Shown here: one piece after another, positions 4,077-34,709 of the stretch
Numbering within the stretch: the first letter of the stretch is position 1
Layout: every line of letters starts with the position of its first letter
NCBI RefSeq assembly: GCF_000153345.1
Contig: NZ_CH724125.1
Coordinates: 1,342,607 to 1,406,606, forward strand
Origin: Neptuniibacter caesariensis
GTDB taxonomy: Bacteria > Pseudomonadota > Gammaproteobacteria > Pseudomonadales > Balneatricaceae
Reading direction: 5' to 3'
Length of the DNA: 64,000 nucleotides
Notes under the pieces: generated by a model
Databases searched by the model: none
The model's input: the letters and a program-made list of their open reading frames with translations, nothing else
Told to the model about the DNA's origin: nothing
Program-made: the position numbers and the translations under genes

Positions 4077-6056
4077 GTGAATTATGCTTTATTGCCGGTT
4101 ATCCGTTTAATGGACCGGATCCCCTACCTTTATAAATTTATTCTTGTCAGTACCATCTTTATCATTCCCTTGATTGTGCTCGCAACGTTGCAGGTGCAAG
4201 CGCTCCAAACACAGATTGATGATACCGAGCAGCGTATTGCCACAACCACTTCGTTAAAAAACGATTTTCAGCTTCAGCAGGATCTAATCCGCTACCGCGA
4301 TCTGCGTTTCTTGCTCGGTTTTCAGCCTCAGGAAAACCATCAGGGCTTAAACTACTTAAGGGAGAGACTTCCCCAATCATTAGCCGCAATACCACAACTC
4401 TTAGAAGCATGGCAAAAACTCGATCAGAGCCGCTTTTCCACACTCTATCTTGATATCGCAAATCGTTTTGCGCATTTCAGCCAAACCACGGATCAACTGC
4501 TTGAAATCAGTCGCAGCGATGGCTTTGATAGTGGCTTAACCCGAGACAGTGACAGCCGAATATTCCTGGTTCTGGACAGTGTTTTAGAACAGATTCCTGC
4601 AGCTATAACGACACTCAGTGAAACACGCAGTTATGTTGGTCATGGATTGATGACCGGCTATTCGGGATCCGCTGCTCTGGATCACTTAAATCGTCTCTAC
4701 GACCGCATTCAGAACAGCGCCGAAGCACTAGCAAAGTCCGCCGATCTACTCGCGGCTCAACCAGGAATCAATACTGAATTATTAGAACAAGCCAAATCTG
4801 CTGCAGCTTCACTAAGCGCTTTTGCAGATAAGCTCGATGAAGAGATCATCATTGGCGATAAAATGGACCAGCATTGGGAGACTTTCTTTAAAGCCGGTAC
4901 TCAAGAGATTAACCACTTACTTACGCTCGCCAACAGTTCATTAACTTATACAGAATCACTGTTATCAGAACGCCATAACGAACAGGAGCAAACCCTGTTC
5001 ACACTGCTAGCGGCGCTATCAATCATTATTCTTTTATCTTCCTACTTTTATCTGGGTTTTAATATTTCCATTCAACAGAACATGGCGAAAGTTCTGTCTG
5101 CAGCAGAGAGGATGGCGCAGGGAGATCTCACTTCAGAAGTTTATCTCAGGGCGAAAGATGAGATGGCTCAGCTTAGCTCACAATTTAATGAGATGAGTAA
5201 ACAGATTCACGCCGTGATAGGCCAGGTAAAACACACGGCTGTCAGCGTGGCAGAACATTCCAACAATCTGGATAAAACCGCCCAGAATTCCAGTATTGCG
5301 GCAGAACAACAGAAATCCCAGACTCAGGAAATGGAGCTTGTAGTGAATGACATGGCTTCTCTGGCCGATAGAATCAGCCAGGAAGTTGCCCTCGCTTCTG
5401 AAGAAGCCGGACAGGCTAATACCCTTGCCGCAAACAGCCGCCAGCAGGTAGAAAGGTCTCTTAAGCAGATCAACGCACTGACCCAGGATATTAAACAGTC
5501 CAGTACTGCGATAGACCACCTGGCTGAGCAGAGCAACCGGGTTGTTAAGGTATTAGATGTCATTAAAGGTATAGCCGAACAAACCAATCTGTTAGCGCTT
5601 AATGCAGCTATCGAAGCCGCCAGGGCCGGCGATATGGGCAGAGGGTTTGCCGTTGTCGCGGATGAAGTCAGAAGCCTTGCCCAAAGAACGCATAGCTCTA
5701 CCGAAGAGATAGAGCAGATGATCACGGAGTTTCGAAGCGGTATGGAAAGTGCGGTGGTCTACATGAACCGCAGCAGTAGTAGCGCCGAAGACACAGTAAA
5801 AGCTTCTTCAGCCATTGAAAGCGCTCTGTCAGATATTACCGCCTCGGTATCGACCATCTCAGAGATGAATGCACGTATCTCCGATTATTCAGCGGAACAG
5901 AGTGACAACGCGCTGAGTATCAGAAACAGTATCAAAGAGGTAAGCCAGGCAAGCGAACTGACCGCTTCAGGTTCTGGAGAAACAGCTCAAGCGTGCGGCG
6001 AGATGTCTATACTGTCTAACGAGCTGAATAACCTGATCGCTAAATTTAAGGTTTAG
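4077..6056 (+). CDS. Methyl-accepting chemotaxis protein
   Basis: This is a transmembrane chemoreceptor of 659 residues. It starts at GTG 4077 with CGGAG seven bases upstream. Membrane helix 1 is at about 19-40, then comes a helical periplasmic sensor of about 260 residues, membrane helix 2 at about 306-328 and a HAMP domain. The cytoplasmic coiled coil carries the signalling tip [20 protein letters not shown] and [15 protein letters not shown] around residues 500-540. The C-terminus (NLIAKFKV) has no CheR/CheB-tethering pentapeptide. The ligand cannot be inferred. It appears to be a single-gene unit. Confidence 0.95.
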
Positions 6057-6084
6057 TCACAAGGTTTCGTTGTAGATCAGGCAT

Positions 6085-6109
6085 AAAAAAGCCCGCTCAA
6101 TGAGCGGGC
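6085..6109 (-). terminator. Intrinsic terminator of the small gene 6144-6338
   Basis: A 9-bp GC-rich stem (GCCCGCTCA at 6091-6099, TGAGCGGGC at 6101-6109) is followed on the reverse strand by six T residues. The T-run is on the reverse side only, so it ends transcription of the small reverse-strand gene rather than the chemoreceptor gene. Confidence 0.85.
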
Positions 6110-6143
6110 AAAAAAACAGGATGTTACTAAATAGAGGTGTCAC

Positions 6144-6338
6144 TTAACAGCTGTAAGCAGGAGCGCTCTGACGGTCTGAACGGGAAAGGCTCAGCATTTT
6201 CTTGACAGCTTTCGCTACTTTGCTCATTGCCGCCGCAAATACTTCGCCACGCTGCTGCTTAGCCTGGTCAATGTAGTATGCAGTATCAATTGCACCGTAT
6301 GCGTCAAGACGTACTGAAATTTCCTGTTCTTTGCTCAT
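6144..6338 (-). CDS. Small conserved hypothetical protein
   Basis: The 64-residue product starts at ATG 6338 (a GTG two codons upstream is an alternative). It is a soluble, helical, basic protein with the segment AIDTAYYIDQAKQQRGEVFAAAMSKVAKAVKKM and a Cys-terminated tail. The pattern resembles the short RSP_7527-type family of proteobacterial proteins of unknown function, but this is a weak recollection. A dedicated strong terminator 35 bases downstream supports it as a real transcription unit. It is divergent from the LysR gene. No function is proposed. Confidence 0.6.
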   Translation of the reverse strand: MSKEQEISVRLDAYGAIDTAYYIDQAKQQRGEVFAAAMSKVAKAVKKMLSLSRSDRQSAPAYSC

Positions 6339-6528
6339 GTTCACACCAAATTAAATCAACAAAATCTAAAACAAAAATGAAGCCCCGCTACTCGAACAAT
6401 CTGATCTTTATTTGATTTCAAAAGACTAGGACATCTAACCTATTGTTTTTACTTTCAAATTGATCGCTTGTTGATTAACGATATGGCGTATACTAAAGTC
6501 TAATCACACTTTGCACAAACGACTGTTT

Positions 6529-6550
6529 TTCACCCTATTGGTGAATTTTT
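6529..6550 (+). terminator. Weak hairpin plus T-run before the LysR gene
   Basis: TTCACC (6529-6534) pairs with GGTGAA (6540-6545) and is followed by five T residues, 20 bases before the proposed LysR start. The stem is only 6 bp. It could attenuate or be chance. Confidence 0.25.
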
Positions 6551-6571
6551 CTCAACAATGAGGTTTTAGTC

Positions 6572-28328: not shown

Positions 28329-30209
28329 GTGTCAGAGGTAACACTTAGTTCCATCAATGTATTTCCCATCAAATCCCTCGGCGGGCTAAATCTTTCAGAC
28401 GTCTTTGTTAGCGAGCAGGGACTCTCGTTTGATCGAAGATTTATGCTCAGTAATCCCGATGGCGAGTTACTCTCTGCTCGCCAGATCCCCTCCCTTCTTC
28501 AGTATTCAGTTTTACTGCGGGATGACGGGATAGAGGTTATTGCACCCGACGGTGATCATCTGAGTATTAAATACCCGGAACTTTTTCAGAACTATAAACA
28601 GGTCACTGTGTGGGGTACGGAGATTAATGCCCAACATTGCGGAATCGGTTTTGATGAATGGTTCACTGAAAAACTGGGGCGGGACTGCCATCTTCTGTTC
28701 TTTGGCGAACAATCCGAACGATTTACATCTAGAAGACCTGAAAAACCCGTCGCCTTTGCCGACGGCTATCCTATTCTGGTGATATCGCAGGCTTCACTAG
28801 ATGACCTAAACAGCCGCTCATCGACGCCTATCACTATGGATCATTTTCGTACCAACTTGGTTGTAGATGGGTGCGAACCTTTTGCTGAAGATAGCTGGAA
28901 GCGTATCCGTATCGGTGAGGTAGAGTTTGAAGCAGTCAAACCCTGCTCCCGTTGCGTCATGACGACATTTAACCCTTCTACGGGTGAAAAAATTCCCCAG
29001 GGGGAGCCTATTAACACCTTGGCTAAGTATCGTTTAGGTGCTGATAATGAGGTCTACTTTGGGCAAAACCTTATTCCTCTCAACGAGGGAAAGATCAGCA
29101 CAACAGACCGAGTGGAAGTTTTAGAGACTCAGGCATCTGAAACCTATCCAAACAATGCACCGATCATTCGAAGCAACGACAGCAGCATAGAGGAAAATAG
29201 CTGGCAAGCGGGACAGGAAGTGACACTTCAATGTCTACAACGTGTTGATGAGACCCGTGATGTTGTAACCTTCCGTTTTGCTCTACCAAAAGGGTTGCGA
29301 GCGGAATACATTGCCGGGCAGTTTATCACCCTAAATCTTATGATTGATGATAGCCCAGTCTCCCGCTGTTATACCCTGTCGTCTTCACCCAGCCGGCCTC
29401 AGGATATCGCGATCACAGTTAAAAGAGTAACGGATGGGAAGATATCCAATTGGTTGCACAAAAACCTTCAGCCTGGCGATCAGATACAAGCACTGGCGCC
29501 TATAGGCGAATTCAATGAAGCCGTAACGGGAAATGGATCGCTCCTATTGCTCTCTGCTGGTAGCGGTATTACACCGATGCTTTCGGCCGTTAGACAATTA
29601 ACCGATACCCATAGCGAACGCGATATTGTCTTTTACCATCAGGCCCGAACTGAAGCCGATCTGATATGCGAAGATGAATTGCTATGGCTGACCCGGCAAA
29701 ACCCTAAACTACGGCTTATCTTCAGCCTCAGCCAGCCCGAACCTGACTGGCTCGGTATTAAAGGCCGAATTAGTCGGGAACAGCTCATTCATCATATACC
29801 CGATCTACCCCAGCGCACGGTCATGTGTTGCGGACCGGAAGGCTTTATGTCGCATGCTAAAGACTATTGCCGCCAATTAGGTTTAGCTGAACAACGTTGG
29901 TTTGAGGAGAGCTTCGGGGCACCTCCTGGTATTGATCCCACAGCCGATTCACATAGTGTACAAGTGACTTTGAATGGCGACAGTTTTACCGGTGACAATC
30001 AACAAACATTACTGGAACAAGCGGAAGAGAATGGTTTTTCCATTCCGGCAGGATGCCGTTCAGGGGTCTGCGGTGCGTGCAAAGTTCAGCTGATTGCCGG
30101 TGACGCCCATCGAAGCTCCGAAATTCCTTTGACTGAGGAGGAAAAAGCCAAAGGGATTGTACTCGCTTGCAGTTGCACACCAGAGACGGATGTCGTCATT
30201 GAATACTAA
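28329..30209 (+). CDS. MOSC-domain / ferredoxin-NADP reductase / 2Fe-2S fusion
   Basis: The 626-residue cytosolic flavoprotein starts at GTG 28329 behind AAGGAAG. Domains: MOSC N-terminal barrel (VFPIKSLGGL, about 1-100), MOSC (about 110-260; VDGCEPFAEDSWKRIRIG and the Cys motif VKPCSRCVMTT near 210), FAD-binding barrel (RCYTLSSSP near 345), NAD-binding domain (SAGSGITPMLSA near 400; MCCGPEGFM near 510) and plant-type 2Fe-2S ferredoxin (CRSGVCGACKVQ with a later Cys). E. coli YcbX has MOSC plus 2Fe-2S and reduces N-hydroxylated bases with molybdenum cofactor. Here the reductase is built into the same chain, so it could use NAD(P)H directly. Confidence 0.9.
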   Translation: MSEVTLSSINVFPIKSLGGLNLSDVFVSEQGLSFDRRFMLSNPDGELLSARQIPSLLQYSVLLRDDGIEVIAPDGDHLSIKYPELFQNYKQVTVWGTEINAQHCGIGFDEWFTEKLGRDCHLLFFGEQSERFTSRRPEKPVAFADGYPILVISQASLDDLNSRSSTPITMDHFRTNLVVDGCEPFAEDSWKRIRIGEVEFEAVKPCSRCVMTTFNPSTGEKIPQGEPINTLAKYRLGADNEVYFGQNLIPLNEGKISTTDRVEVLETQASETYPNNAPIIRSNDSSIEENSWQAGQEVTLQCLQRVDETRDVVTFRFALPKGLRAEYIAGQFITLNLMIDDSPVSRCYTLSSSPSRPQDIAITVKRVTDGKISNWLHKNLQPGDQIQALAPIGEFNEAVTGNGSLLLLSAGSGITPMLSAVRQLTDTHSERDIVFYHQARTEADLICEDELLWLTRQNPKLRLIFSLSQPEPDWLGIKGRISREQLIHHIPDLPQRTVMCCGPEGFMSHAKDYCRQLGLAEQRWFEESFGAPPGIDPTADSHSVQVTLNGDSFTGDNQQTLLEQAEENGFSIPAGCRSGVCGACKVQLIAGDAHRSSEIPLTEEEKAKGIVLACSCTPETDVVIEY

Positions 30210-31982: not shown

Positions 31983-32198
31983 ATAACACCCGGCAGGGTT
32001 TATGCCGTGCAACTTAATGGAACCCACCCGCACCAAAACAATGCACCCAGCCACCAATCCATACCCTCATTTGTGCCCAACTACTTTGCACAATCAGTCA
32101 CAAATTGCCCATAAAATGGGCGCTTAAGTTCTCTTTATCTTAAATTGGCTCAAGTTTTGCTCAAAGGTTGTCAGGAGAGCAAGTTTAAGGAGCCAGCC

Positions 32199-33356
32199 AT
32201 GCTGTTTCTATCATTGGGTTACACACTGCTGAGCAGAGCATCACTTCTGCTTTCAGGAATCACTTTACTGTTGATCTGGATTGCTTTGTTTGCAGCCACT
32301 TATGCAGATCTTCCTCATGCGTATTGGCTGCTTTTACCCTTAGTCTATCTGCAAATCTGTTTTATCTTTCTTTGCCAACAGCGCTGGCAGCACCTTTCGC
32401 AGATTATTGCAGCCTTTGCCGATCAGGATCACCAATTCCGCAGCCGATATAACAGTGCTGACAAACCCTTATGTGATCTGAGCCAGCACCTGTACTCAAT
32501 TTCACGTGATTATCAGGAGCTAAACTCCCTTTCAGATCAGTTATGCAGTGAGATGCGCTATTCAACTCACGAGTTAGAGAATCTAGCGACCCATACAGCC
32601 CATGCGGCTTCCGAACAGCAGAACCAATTACTAACAATCGCCAGCGCTTCTGAAGAGATGAGCCAGACGGTTCAGATAATCCGCGGTCACGTGCAGAATA
32701 CTTACGACAATGCACATACCTCCCAAGAGATTTGCCAGCAAGGCAGCAGTGAAGCTGCTGAACTGAGTTACTCATTAAACGGGGTTTCAGAGCAGTTCAG
32801 CCAGACCTGCCACAAGATTTCAGAACTTTCAGAAGAAGCTCAGGCGATTCAAAATTTTGTCAGCACTATCGAAGAGGTGGCTGCACAAACCAATTTACTT
32901 GCCCTGAATGCCGCTATTGAAGCCGCCAGAGCTGGAGAAGCAGGGCGCGGGTTTGCAGTCGTTGCTGACGAGGTACGCCAGCTAGCGGGAAATACCGAAC
33001 GTGCAACAGCTGATATCACACAACTGGTTGAATCTATGCAGAACCGGGTGCATGAAGTCACAAAAAGCATGCAGCAATGCGATGAAGTACTGCAACTGGG
33101 CTCAACTACCTGCAATAAAATGCAGGGACTTTTACAGAACATAGAATCCGGAAGCGATACCAGCCTGAAACTGATTGGTGAAGTGAATCTCTCAATTGAT
33201 GAACATGCCCACGCTAGCAACGAGTTGAGTGAAAAACTTACTCAGATAGGCGATCTGCTTGAGCAGCATAGTCAACAAGCGGGTTCATTAACTGAGTTAA
33301 CCGGCTACCTGGAAAAATTAGCAGAGAAGGCATCCTCTAAGGAGGCTGTAGCATGA
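32199..33356 (+). CDS. Membrane-anchored chemotaxis transducer without periplasmic sensor
   Basis: The 385-residue product starts at ATG 32199 (AAGGAG six bases upstream; a TTG at 32145 has no such site). Two closely spaced membrane helices (about 5-32 and 42-60) form a hairpin with almost no periplasmic loop. The methyl-accepting domain follows, with the tip [33 protein letters not shown] near 240-275. There is no HAMP or PAS domain, so the input must come from elsewhere. The next gene overlaps by four bases (ATGA) and encodes a membrane-anchored sensor-like protein, a plausible partner. Confidence 0.9.
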
Positions 33357-34111
33357 TTGAGACTATTATTTTCATCGGCTTAATCGCGCTAATCATCAGC
33401 GCAAACCTTTACAATAAATTTAGACTTCAGCGTAAAAACCATGCCAAGCTGCAAAAAGGGATCTACCAACTCTCTTTATTACTTAGTCTGATTCAGAACC
33501 TTCAGCGGCATCGCGGAGTTTGTGCAAACCTGGACCCGAACAACCGCCAACAGCAACAGCGCCTTAGCGCTGAAATTAACTCAATTTGGGATAGTCTGAT
33601 TTCACCCGAATACGATGGTAACCAAACACGTTTACATATTCAGAAGCGAAACTGGGAAGCACTGGCAGCACAACCGGAAAATAGCTTTATGCCGCATTGT
33701 CAGCTGATTGAGATGCTACTCAATGAATTAAATGTGATTGCGGATACTTGTTCACTCACGTCAACCCAAACCAACATTAACCATTCTGAACTGTGGCAAA
33801 ACCTTCTCGAACGTCCTATGTTTGCGGAGTCACTAGGTAAACTCAGGGCACTGGGGAATAAAGCGGCTTCTCTGGGCTACTGCCCTGCCGATATCCGGGT
33901 GCAACTGCATTATCAGTTACAGTGTCTGGCAAATAACTCTATGGACAGCACAACGTGCATAGAGATTAAATCTCTCATTGAAAAAGAGATACTTGAGCCG
34001 GAAAAAATTCATATAGAACCCCGGGTATATTTCCAGCGAATGACTCAAGCGATTGACGCCCAGATTCAAATCACTCTGGAACATCTAAACGAATTGAAGC
34101 AGGTGAATTAA
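33353..34111 (+). CDS. Membrane-anchored sensor-like protein, possibly NIT-related
   Basis: The 252-residue product has one N-terminal membrane helix (about 2-20) and a helical cytoplasmic part. [21 protein letters not shown] near 42-62 resembles the QxERG segment of nitrate/nitrite-sensing (NIT) domains, and a later C-terminal half keeps the four-helix pattern; this is a tentative resemblance. It overlaps the upstream chemotaxis transducer by four bases (ATGA), so the two are translationally coupled and probably work together. A hairpin with a T-run follows at 34150. I cannot name a ligand. Confidence 0.55.
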
Positions 34112-34205: not shown

Positions 34206-34709
34206 ATGGAAAGTGATAAAACCCCTCAACAAATCGGCAAAGGGATGTGGCTAGCCGCATGGCTGATCCTAATGGGCATTTTATTTGTTTATTTTGAGGA
34301 TCTGATTCAGGAAAAATATGACCCGAATCACGCCCTGTCATCAGACGACTCTGGGGAAGTTATCCTCAAACGTAACCGGCAAGGGCATTACGTAGCGCCC
34401 GGTTTAATCAATGGCAAGCCGGTCGTGTTCCTACTGGACACCGGAGCAACAACCATTAGTGTACCTAAAAAAGTCGCTGACAATATCGGCCTTATTGGGG
34501 GTTATAAACAACAAGTAGGTACGGCTAATGGCATGATTGAGGTTTTTCAAACGCGTTTGGATTCCGTTAGCTTAGGAGGAATTACCCTTAATGATATTCA
34601 GGGGCATATCAATCCACATATGGATAGCAATACCGTGCTTCTAGGTATGAGTTTCATGCGTAACCTGGAGATCATTCAGAAAGGGAATACGCTAACGTTA
34701 CGACGTTAG
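34206..34709 (+). CDS. TIGR02281-type retroviral-like aspartic protease
   Basis: The 167-residue product has one N-terminal membrane helix (GMWLAAWLILMGILFVYF, about 14-32) and then a clan AA aspartic protease domain with the catalytic motif LLDTGATTISVP near 80. The C-terminal LLGMSFMRNLEIIQKGNTLTL is characteristic of the bacterial periplasmic family. Such proteins act as dimers, and substrates are unknown. It starts at ATG 34206 behind GCAGGAGCG. It is convergent with tmcA, with a dispersed repeat between the two. Confidence 0.88.
   Translation: MESDKTPQQIGKGMWLAAWLILMGILFVYFEDLIQEKYDPNHALSSDDSGEVILKRNRQGHYVAPGLINGKPVVFLLDTGATTISVPKKVADNIGLIGGYKQQVGTANGMIEVFQTRLDSVSLGGITLNDIQGHINPHMDSNTVLLGMSFMRNLEIIQKGNTLTLRR

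Follow-up and report, generated by a model that had tools for sequence, protein, structure and literature searches.

Overlapping genes for a sensor-less chemotaxis transducer and a membrane-anchored NIT-fold protein in Neptuniibacter caesariensis, a probable two-chain chemoreceptor

A stretch of 64,000 nucleotides of Neptuniibacter caesariensis (contig NZ_CH724125.1 of assembly GCF_000153345.1; hereafter the window, in whose numbering all positions are given) contains a pair of overlapping genes on the forward strand, which was analysed computationally as a probable two-chain chemoreceptor. The first gene (32199-33356, +) is an open reading frame (ORF) for a chemotaxis transducer of 385 amino acids, and the second (33353-34111, +) is an ORF for a protein of 252 amino acids, a putative sensor that was assigned to the NIT (nitrate/nitrite-sensing) fold from an AlphaFold2 model and its structural match to NasR. 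Both reading frames were found in the sequence where the original prediction had placed them, each with a good ribosome-binding site. A Shine-Dalgarno-like AAGGAG (32187-32192, +), identified by direct reading of the sequence, lies 6 nucleotides 5' of the ATG at 32199, and the Shine-Dalgarno sequence AAGGAGG of the sensor gene (33339-33345, +) lies within the end of the transducer gene, 7 nucleotides 5' of the ATG at 33353. The start codon of the sensor gene and the stop codon of the transducer gene overlap as ATGA. Scans for promoters and terminators gave hits that were no more numerous than in shuffled sequences.

The sole Pfam match above cut-off in the transducer was MCPsignal (3.9e-39), and no Pfam match was obtained for HAMP, PAS or ligand-binding domains. 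The signalling domain typical of methyl-accepting chemotaxis proteins (MCPs) spans residues 198-351 (32790-33251, +), has a hairpin tip that stands out as conserved alignment columns, and was detected by Pfam in all 77 sequences of the split-transducer alignment, the window included. An AlphaFold2 model of the transducer (predicted local distance difference test score, pLDDT, 87.0; predicted template modelling score, pTM, 0.48) has helices at residues 8-32, 39-74 and 89-384 and a short one at 79-83. From these helix limits and two hydrophobic peaks, a transmembrane hairpin was predicted at residues 8-32 and 39 to about 60 (32220-32378, +), the end of the second membrane segment being an estimate. 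As the hairpin loop has only about 6 residues, the transducer is without a periplasmic sensor. Pfam and the model agree in this respect with the initial description of a membrane hairpin and signalling domain that receive no periplasmic or PAS input.

The same description had also denied the transducer a HAMP domain, which is correct for detection by hidden Markov models but not for the structure prediction, in which a HAMP-like helix-connector-helix appears at residues ~60-105 (32376-32513, +), the proposed contact site of the sensor. The break between helices at residues 75-88 of the model falls at the expected place of a HAMP connector. Pfam HAMP was found at E <= 0.1 in 7 of the 77 split transducers, with a best value of 5.2e-6. 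VIA-align matched residues 67-381 of the transducer to the HAMP-Tsr fusion 3zx6 with a Z of 16.2, which is non-specific, since the unrelated coiled coil Smc (5xg2) reaches 15.2; other structural matches were the chemoreceptors 2ch7 (Z 16.5) and 1qu7 (Z 13.2). A profile-profile comparison with HAMP gave a weak result, with a probability of 3.2% for 17 window-like sequences versus 0.4-1.3% for four shifted controls made from this set, and 42 other split transducers, which were run without a shifted control, gave 22.5%. A degenerate HAMP-like segment probably remains in the transducer and, judged from the structure prediction, is too divergent for the Pfam HAMP model.

The second protein was predicted to consist of one N-terminal membrane helix followed by an all-helical domain, as expected from the membrane-anchored helical protein proposed at the outset, and the LQRHRG segment that had drawn attention to it lies at residues 50-55 (33500-33517). 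A signal-anchor helix with predicted N-out/C-in orientation occupies residues 1-19 (33353-33409, +) according to hydrophobicity, the AlphaFold2 model and counts of lysine and arginine (K/R). The model of this protein, built on an alignment of 64 sequences, has eight helices (mean pLDDT 92.7, pTM 0.87), of which the helix at residues 2-58 runs unbroken from the membrane anchor into NIT helix 1. In a Foldseek search of the model against the PDB, NasR (4akk) came first with a probability of 1.00 and an E of 7.4e-3, no match being found at 0.001 or below. VIA-align superposed 232 residues on NasR with a Z of 20.8 and a root mean square deviation of 4.4 Å, and the next match had a Z of 12.9 over 108 residues. 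No Pfam or NCBIfam model, Pfam NIT included, scored above cut-off with the window sensor alone, and Pfam NIT (PF08376) was found at E <= 0.05 in 16 of the 27 members of the sensor alignment (best 2.3e-10), the window protein not among them. NasR was absent among the matches at E <= 10 when the sensor profile was compared with PDB sequences, and a search of the window genome with PF08376 gave nothing, its controls likewise giving no match. The NIT assignment comes from the relatives and the structure match and not from a sequence search of the window protein itself. With the fold prediction, NasR as the best PDB match and Pfam NIT in relatives, the early suspicion of a NIT-like protein was borne out, and the second protein is modelled as NIT at the fold and superfamily level.

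The motifs of the sensor were compared between the window protein, 75 other split, orphan and fused rows of its HRG-type subfamily and 21 classical NIT rows. In the QRHRG motif at residues 51-55 (33503-33517, +), R54 is common with classical NIT domains and H53 replaces a Glu: position 53 is His in 75 of 75 subfamily rows and Glu in 20 of the 21 classical rows, with one gap. Two further residues are specific to the subfamily, namely W101 (33653-33655, +; 71 of 75 rows, 0 of 21 classical) and H115 (33695-33697, +; 75 of 75 rows, Tyr or Phe in 20 of 21 classical). A second motif, E159-x2-G162-x2-R165 (33827-33847, +), contains an Arg that is aligned with that of the classical QER motif, an equivalence taken from a sequence alignment with classical NIT domains and not from a structure superposition. 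R54 and R165, the arginines of the classical ERG and QER motifs, are present in the window protein and in 75 of 75 other subfamily rows. The Glu before the second Arg occurs in 18 of the 21 classical rows, but the window protein has Leu at this position, 39 of 39 pair rows lack the Glu, and in orphan and fused rows it is outside the five commonest residues. In NasR, the QER motif is Q174-E175-R176, of which E175 and R176 were predicted to lie in the nitrate pocket (PMC7496416).

Conservation of the gene pair was followed across genomes, with loci and genomes labelled by L- and G-numbers of this analysis (G000 is the genome of the window). A search with the second protein gave matches in 35 of 293 genomes of the window's order. 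Out of the 30 loci retrieved from these 35, the window included, 17 had a sensor-less MCP directly upstream on the same strand, 3 were fused, a single chain carrying NIT, HAMP and MCP domains in this order, and 10 had neither. After class-wide and named loci had been added, 140 NIT ORFs in 139 loci were classified as 86 pairs, 36 fused and 18 alone, or 134 ORFs (81 pairs, 36 fused, 17 alone) after identical sequences had been removed; the named loci had been collected with an alignment of split and orphan sensors, so the proportions of split to fused forms cannot be read as frequencies. The 81 pairs include L155, a broken fused gene with the MCP downstream, and L119 and L151, which have MCP fragments only. 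In the 80 pairs with an upstream MCP, the intergenic gap ranged from -301 to +41 nucleotides and was within 60 nucleotides in 73, the longer overlaps probably being due to ORF starts called too early. The window genome (3.92 Mb) has 35 MCP matches above cut-off, so that an MCP would be met as a neighbour by chance about once in 100 cases, with the gene number estimated. Pairs were found in Marinomonas, Vibrio, Alteromonadaceae, Cellvibrionaceae, Methylomonas, Moritella, Neiella and Pseudomonas and in four betaproteobacterial loci (the tally is five with the misclassified L155). In a family-wide search, an MCP lay upstream in 9 of 23 loci, of which L177 is the same place as L021. The original prediction had named a missing NIT-like fold together with a missing conserved pairing as the outcome that would speak against it; a NIT fold was predicted, and the pairing is kept beyond the genus.

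Some individual loci are of interest in their own right. At L019 (2159-3085, -), the transducer ORF as called encodes 308 amino acids without a predicted membrane segment, and that receptor may be anchored in the membrane through the NIT protein alone. Two fused NIT-MCP receptors stand in tandem in a Zoogloea oleivorans assembly (L143:2818-4839 and 4864-6570). A single-chain NIT-MCP receptor with the HRG-type motif is also encoded in the window genome itself (G000:C3:721617-722441, L075), and together with the window pair it offers a natural comparison of split and fused forms within one organism.

Phylogenetic analyses were done with quick trees, for which the program warned of long branches meeting, the window sensor (L001) included. 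In the NIT tree, the 76 rows of the HRG group, which comprises split, fused and orphan sensors, stood apart from 21 classical NIT domains with a Shimodaira-Hasegawa-like approximate likelihood ratio test (SH-aLRT) support of 97; the fused label required one change (support 78) and the pair label 11 changes. Before this tree was made, L004, L005, L021, L056, L132, L135, L155 and L169 were left out as short or motif-less, one of the two L143 ORFs was lost, and rows more than 55% identical were thinned, which reduced 125 rows to 76. In the tree of the MCP signalling core, in which the transducers of L150 and L157 were skipped, 38 of 38 split transducers fell within one set of 43 rows (SH-aLRT 97) that also holds 3 fused receptors and 2 other MCPs of the window genome, and the split label required three changes. 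Structure alignments were made without L109, L135, L155 and L169 for the sensor and without L104, L114, L135 and L169 for the transducer. Fused copies were considered as direct ancestors of the split form, but this direction is not claimed because of the long branches and the unsettled root inside this group of NIT domains. Pairwise distances of sensors and transducers were correlated over 38 pairs with r = 0.83, a value reached in 0 of 5000 permutations, the maximum of which was 0.26. Sensors and transducers have travelled together; shared descent gives the same signal, so contact between them does not follow.

That sensor and transducer act jointly is supported by the fused relatives, because these hold both parts in one chain. 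The NIT protein might instead work as a sensor or regulator in its own right, linked to the transducer by nothing more than a common operon, as the orphan copies (17 of 134), one of them overlapping an ANTAR gene (L043), could suggest. This is improbable in view of the pairing across many families, the parallel divergence and the fused forms, and no sensor family was detected in the window transducer or, for the 77 split transducers, in the 25 of 129 families shown. Separate sensing and signalling chains that act together are therefore supported. The original prediction had these chains meet in the membrane; the contact itself, which we infer, may instead be at the cytoplasmic membrane face.

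The side of the membrane on which the NIT domain lies was judged from charged residues. Split pairs have on average 0.47 K/R in the 15 residues before the anchor and 5.0 in the 20 residues after it (72 of 81 pairs scored). More basic residues after than before the anchor were counted in 71 of 72 scored pairs and in 16 of 16 scored orphans (of 17), but only in 4 of 19 scored fused ORFs (of 36), the fused receptors having means of 3.1 before and 2.7 after the first helix. Because basic residues follow the anchor, the positive-inside rule would place the split NIT domain in the cytoplasm, which it probably faces. In fused receptors, the NIT domain lies between two hydrophobic segments in 35 of 36 ORFs, and it would be periplasmic there, as a membrane helix flanks it on either side and the signalling domain is in the cytoplasm. 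This arrangement, along with a second C-terminal hydrophobic segment in some split sensors (e.g. L035 and L112), might be taken to mean that one gene was simply split in two without a change of geometry, leaving the NIT domain periplasmic like that of ordinary NIT chemoreceptors. Such a geometry is hard to reconcile with basic residues that come after and not before the first helix in almost all scored pairs and with the single hydrophobic segment of the window sensor, which is N-terminal, and it is considered unlikely. The second C-terminal segment (~19 residues) was seen in the split sensors L034, L035, L036, L038, L039, L109, L112 and L114 and not in the window protein.

Putting these observations together, the two genes quite probably encode two chains of one chemoreceptor, in a model for which we infer the physical complex, the cytoplasmic placement, the signal path, the ligand and the behaviour. 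The first chain would run from the membrane hairpin through the HAMP-like segment into a long signalling coiled coil that docks CheA/CheW. The second would be a NIT sensor tethered by a single helix and held on the cytoplasmic side, beside the HAMP-like segment of the transducer. An anion, most likely nitrate or nitrite inside the cell, might bind between the two NIT helical bundles, where two conserved arginines would hold it. Binding would shift NIT helix 1, which is predicted to be continuous with the membrane anchor, and the shift might pass sideways to the transducer, as CetB is thought to act on CetA.

Genes related to nitrate were found near some of the sensors. The orphan L004 adjoins a gene for a nitrate ABC transporter ATPase (TIGR01184, above NCBIfam cut-off) and an ntrB-like permease gene below cut-off, and the orphan L160 is near an ntrB-like gene whose score is also below cut-off. 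At the orphan L043, the NIT gene (1489-2352) overlaps an ANTAR gene (2349-2969) by four bases and an NMT1-type (NrtA-like) gene follows; from its gene order, this locus resembles a NasR divided over two chains, of which the sensor is membrane-anchored. The pair L140 adjoins a receiver-ANTAR and NMT1 gene pair, presumably in the arrangement that nasT and nasS would have. NMT1-type genes were also found near the orphans L016 and L160 and the pair L021, and the pairs L019 and L126 adjoin molybdopterin reductase genes, of which that of L126 carries a BFD domain. The NIT gene lies less than 10 kb from NirB in 2 of 35 genomes (G218 with L019 and G271 with L004) and about 23 kb from it in G103. At the level of genomes, NirB was above cut-off in 34 of 35 with a NIT match versus 30 of 50 without, these 50 having been chosen by the author from 258 genomes without a match and including G211, which has a weak fused profile match. 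Respiratory nitrate reductases do not track the system, being rare: of the 35 genomes, 5 had narG and 9 had napA above cut-off, and the window genome had neither.

It is a substantial possibility, short of an even chance, that the same two-chain receptor uses its HRG-type NIT domain for another anion or small molecule and not for nitrate or nitrite. The classical motif positions are replaced throughout the subfamily, with His for Glu and His for Tyr or Phe in every row and loss of the Glu before the second Arg, and no nitrate-type gene was found in the short flanks of 90 of 98 split or orphan loci. The NIT domain of PA4520 bound neither nitrate nor nitrite (PMC6381276), and NIT domains without nitrate or nitrite binding are described in a 2026 paper (PMC13343842). 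On the other hand, both arginines are retained, a few orphans and pairs stand beside nitrate-transport, ANTAR and NMT1-type genes, and NirB accompanies nearly all genomes with the sensor. The receptor L192, which we take to be PA4520-like from its AmpE-like neighbour, is without the HRG motif, so the negative result for PA4520 may not transfer. For Dickeya dadantii, Dd15070 is entered as a nitrate/nitrite chemoreceptor in a review table, where the cited title speaks of a nitrate-sensing-domain-containing protein (PMC10832524). As the motifs differ from classical NIT and the PA4520 domain bound neither ion, nitrate and nitrite are candidate ligands only, and the chance that one of them is sensed is put at somewhat under one in two.

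Several points weigh against the two-chain receptor for internal nitrate or nitrite. The chain-to-chain contact is deduced from the genes and from single-chain models, and the topology of the sensor has the positive-inside rule as its basis. In the profile-profile test for HAMP, the window sequence by itself gave 0.36%, no better than the shifted controls. The 17 of 134 non-redundant NIT ORFs without an adjacent transducer, beside which no transducer remnant was found within 0.4-1.7 kb on either side, indicate that the sensor can exist without a neighbouring partner. Nitrate-type genes were counted at only 8 of the 98 split or orphan loci, against none of the 35 fused loci and none of the 30 loci of other MCPs, and this count is a description and not an independent test, as the queries came from five of the eight loci, the flanks were short and the 30 controls were from one genome. 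No nitrate-type neighbour was found among the genes scanned at the window locus. The reductases of L019 and L126 had formate dehydrogenase as their best NCBIfam score with NasC close behind, none above cut-off, and are not resolved as nasA. When the negatives were limited to genomes with CheA of normal length (counted by hand), NirB was found in 24 of 35, so that the difference shrinks (one-sided Fisher p 0.0015); both NirB comparisons are uncorrected for phylogeny.

A wider idea can be put forward tentatively, as one rather more likely to fail than to hold: the HRG-type NIT protein would be an exchangeable, membrane-tethered and cytoplasm-facing subunit that reports internal nitrate or nitrite, mostly together with a dedicated sensor-less chemoreceptor and, in at least one lineage, with a separate ANTAR protein. 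If so, cells would steer by the nitrate they have taken up and not by outside nitrate, and the NIT sensor would have changed membrane side between one-chain and two-chain receptors.

Other genes of the window were noted in passing. A small gene for a retropepsin-like aspartyl protease lies 3' of the pair (34206-34709, +; gag-asp_proteas 9.9e-24). A second, full-length MCP gene is found at 4077-6056 (+; genome match C5:1348006-1348554), and the gene at 28329-30209 (+) encodes a fusion in which MOSC_N and MOSC domains precede FAD-binding, NAD-binding and 2Fe-2S ferredoxin domains.

One-chain NIT chemoreceptors and bipartite PAS receptors are already known, and the two-chain NIT form appears to be new; no two-chain NIT chemoreceptor was found by title or abstract in a literature search with little coverage of subscription journals. 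A second, unrelated sensor fold in two-chain use, conserved in Gamma- and Betaproteobacteria, would show that sideways signalling from membrane partners is more general. If the sensor is cytoplasmic, steering by internal nitrate or nitrite would gain a direct molecular candidate that, unlike McpN, does not sense in the periplasm, and a sensor domain would have switched compartment in the course of evolution.

The closest known layout is that of the energy-taxis receptor CetA/CetB of Campylobacter jejuni, a hairpin transducer with a separate cytoplasmic PAS protein for which contact was proposed at the HAMP domain (PMC2628428). Such pairs have been named bipartite MCPs, and CetBA2 of Magnetospirillum gryphiswaldense was tested genetically (PMC12442639). 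The pair described here resembles CetA/CetB in its sensor-less membrane-hairpin transducer, in the adjacent gene for a sensor that probably faces the cytoplasm and in the proposed contact at the HAMP region. However, CetB senses through PAS and lacks a membrane helix, and a HAMP domain is present in CetA, whereas the present sensor is an anchored NIT fold and the HAMP-like part of the transducer is probably degenerate. As the sensor has a NIT fold and no Pfam match to PAS was obtained in either chain, the pair is not a member of the CetAB family and is similar to it in layout only.

With full-length NIT chemoreceptors such as PA4520, the pair shares a NIT sensor coupled to an MCP domain, and the fused relatives also have the HRG-type NIT. 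Those receptors, however, are one chain, with the NIT domain between two membrane helices and a HAMP domain seen by Pfam (3 of 3 tested). NasR, a NIT-ANTAR antiterminator, is alike in its NIT fold and arginine motifs, but the Glu and Tyr of the classical motifs are replaced by His in the present sensor, and NasR is presumably without a membrane anchor. Its output is also different, being RNA binding (PMC7496416). McpN of Pseudomonas aeruginosa is a chemoreceptor for nitrate, as is proposed here for nitrate or nitrite, but it is a single chain whose PilJ domain senses nitrate in the periplasm (PMC6381276).

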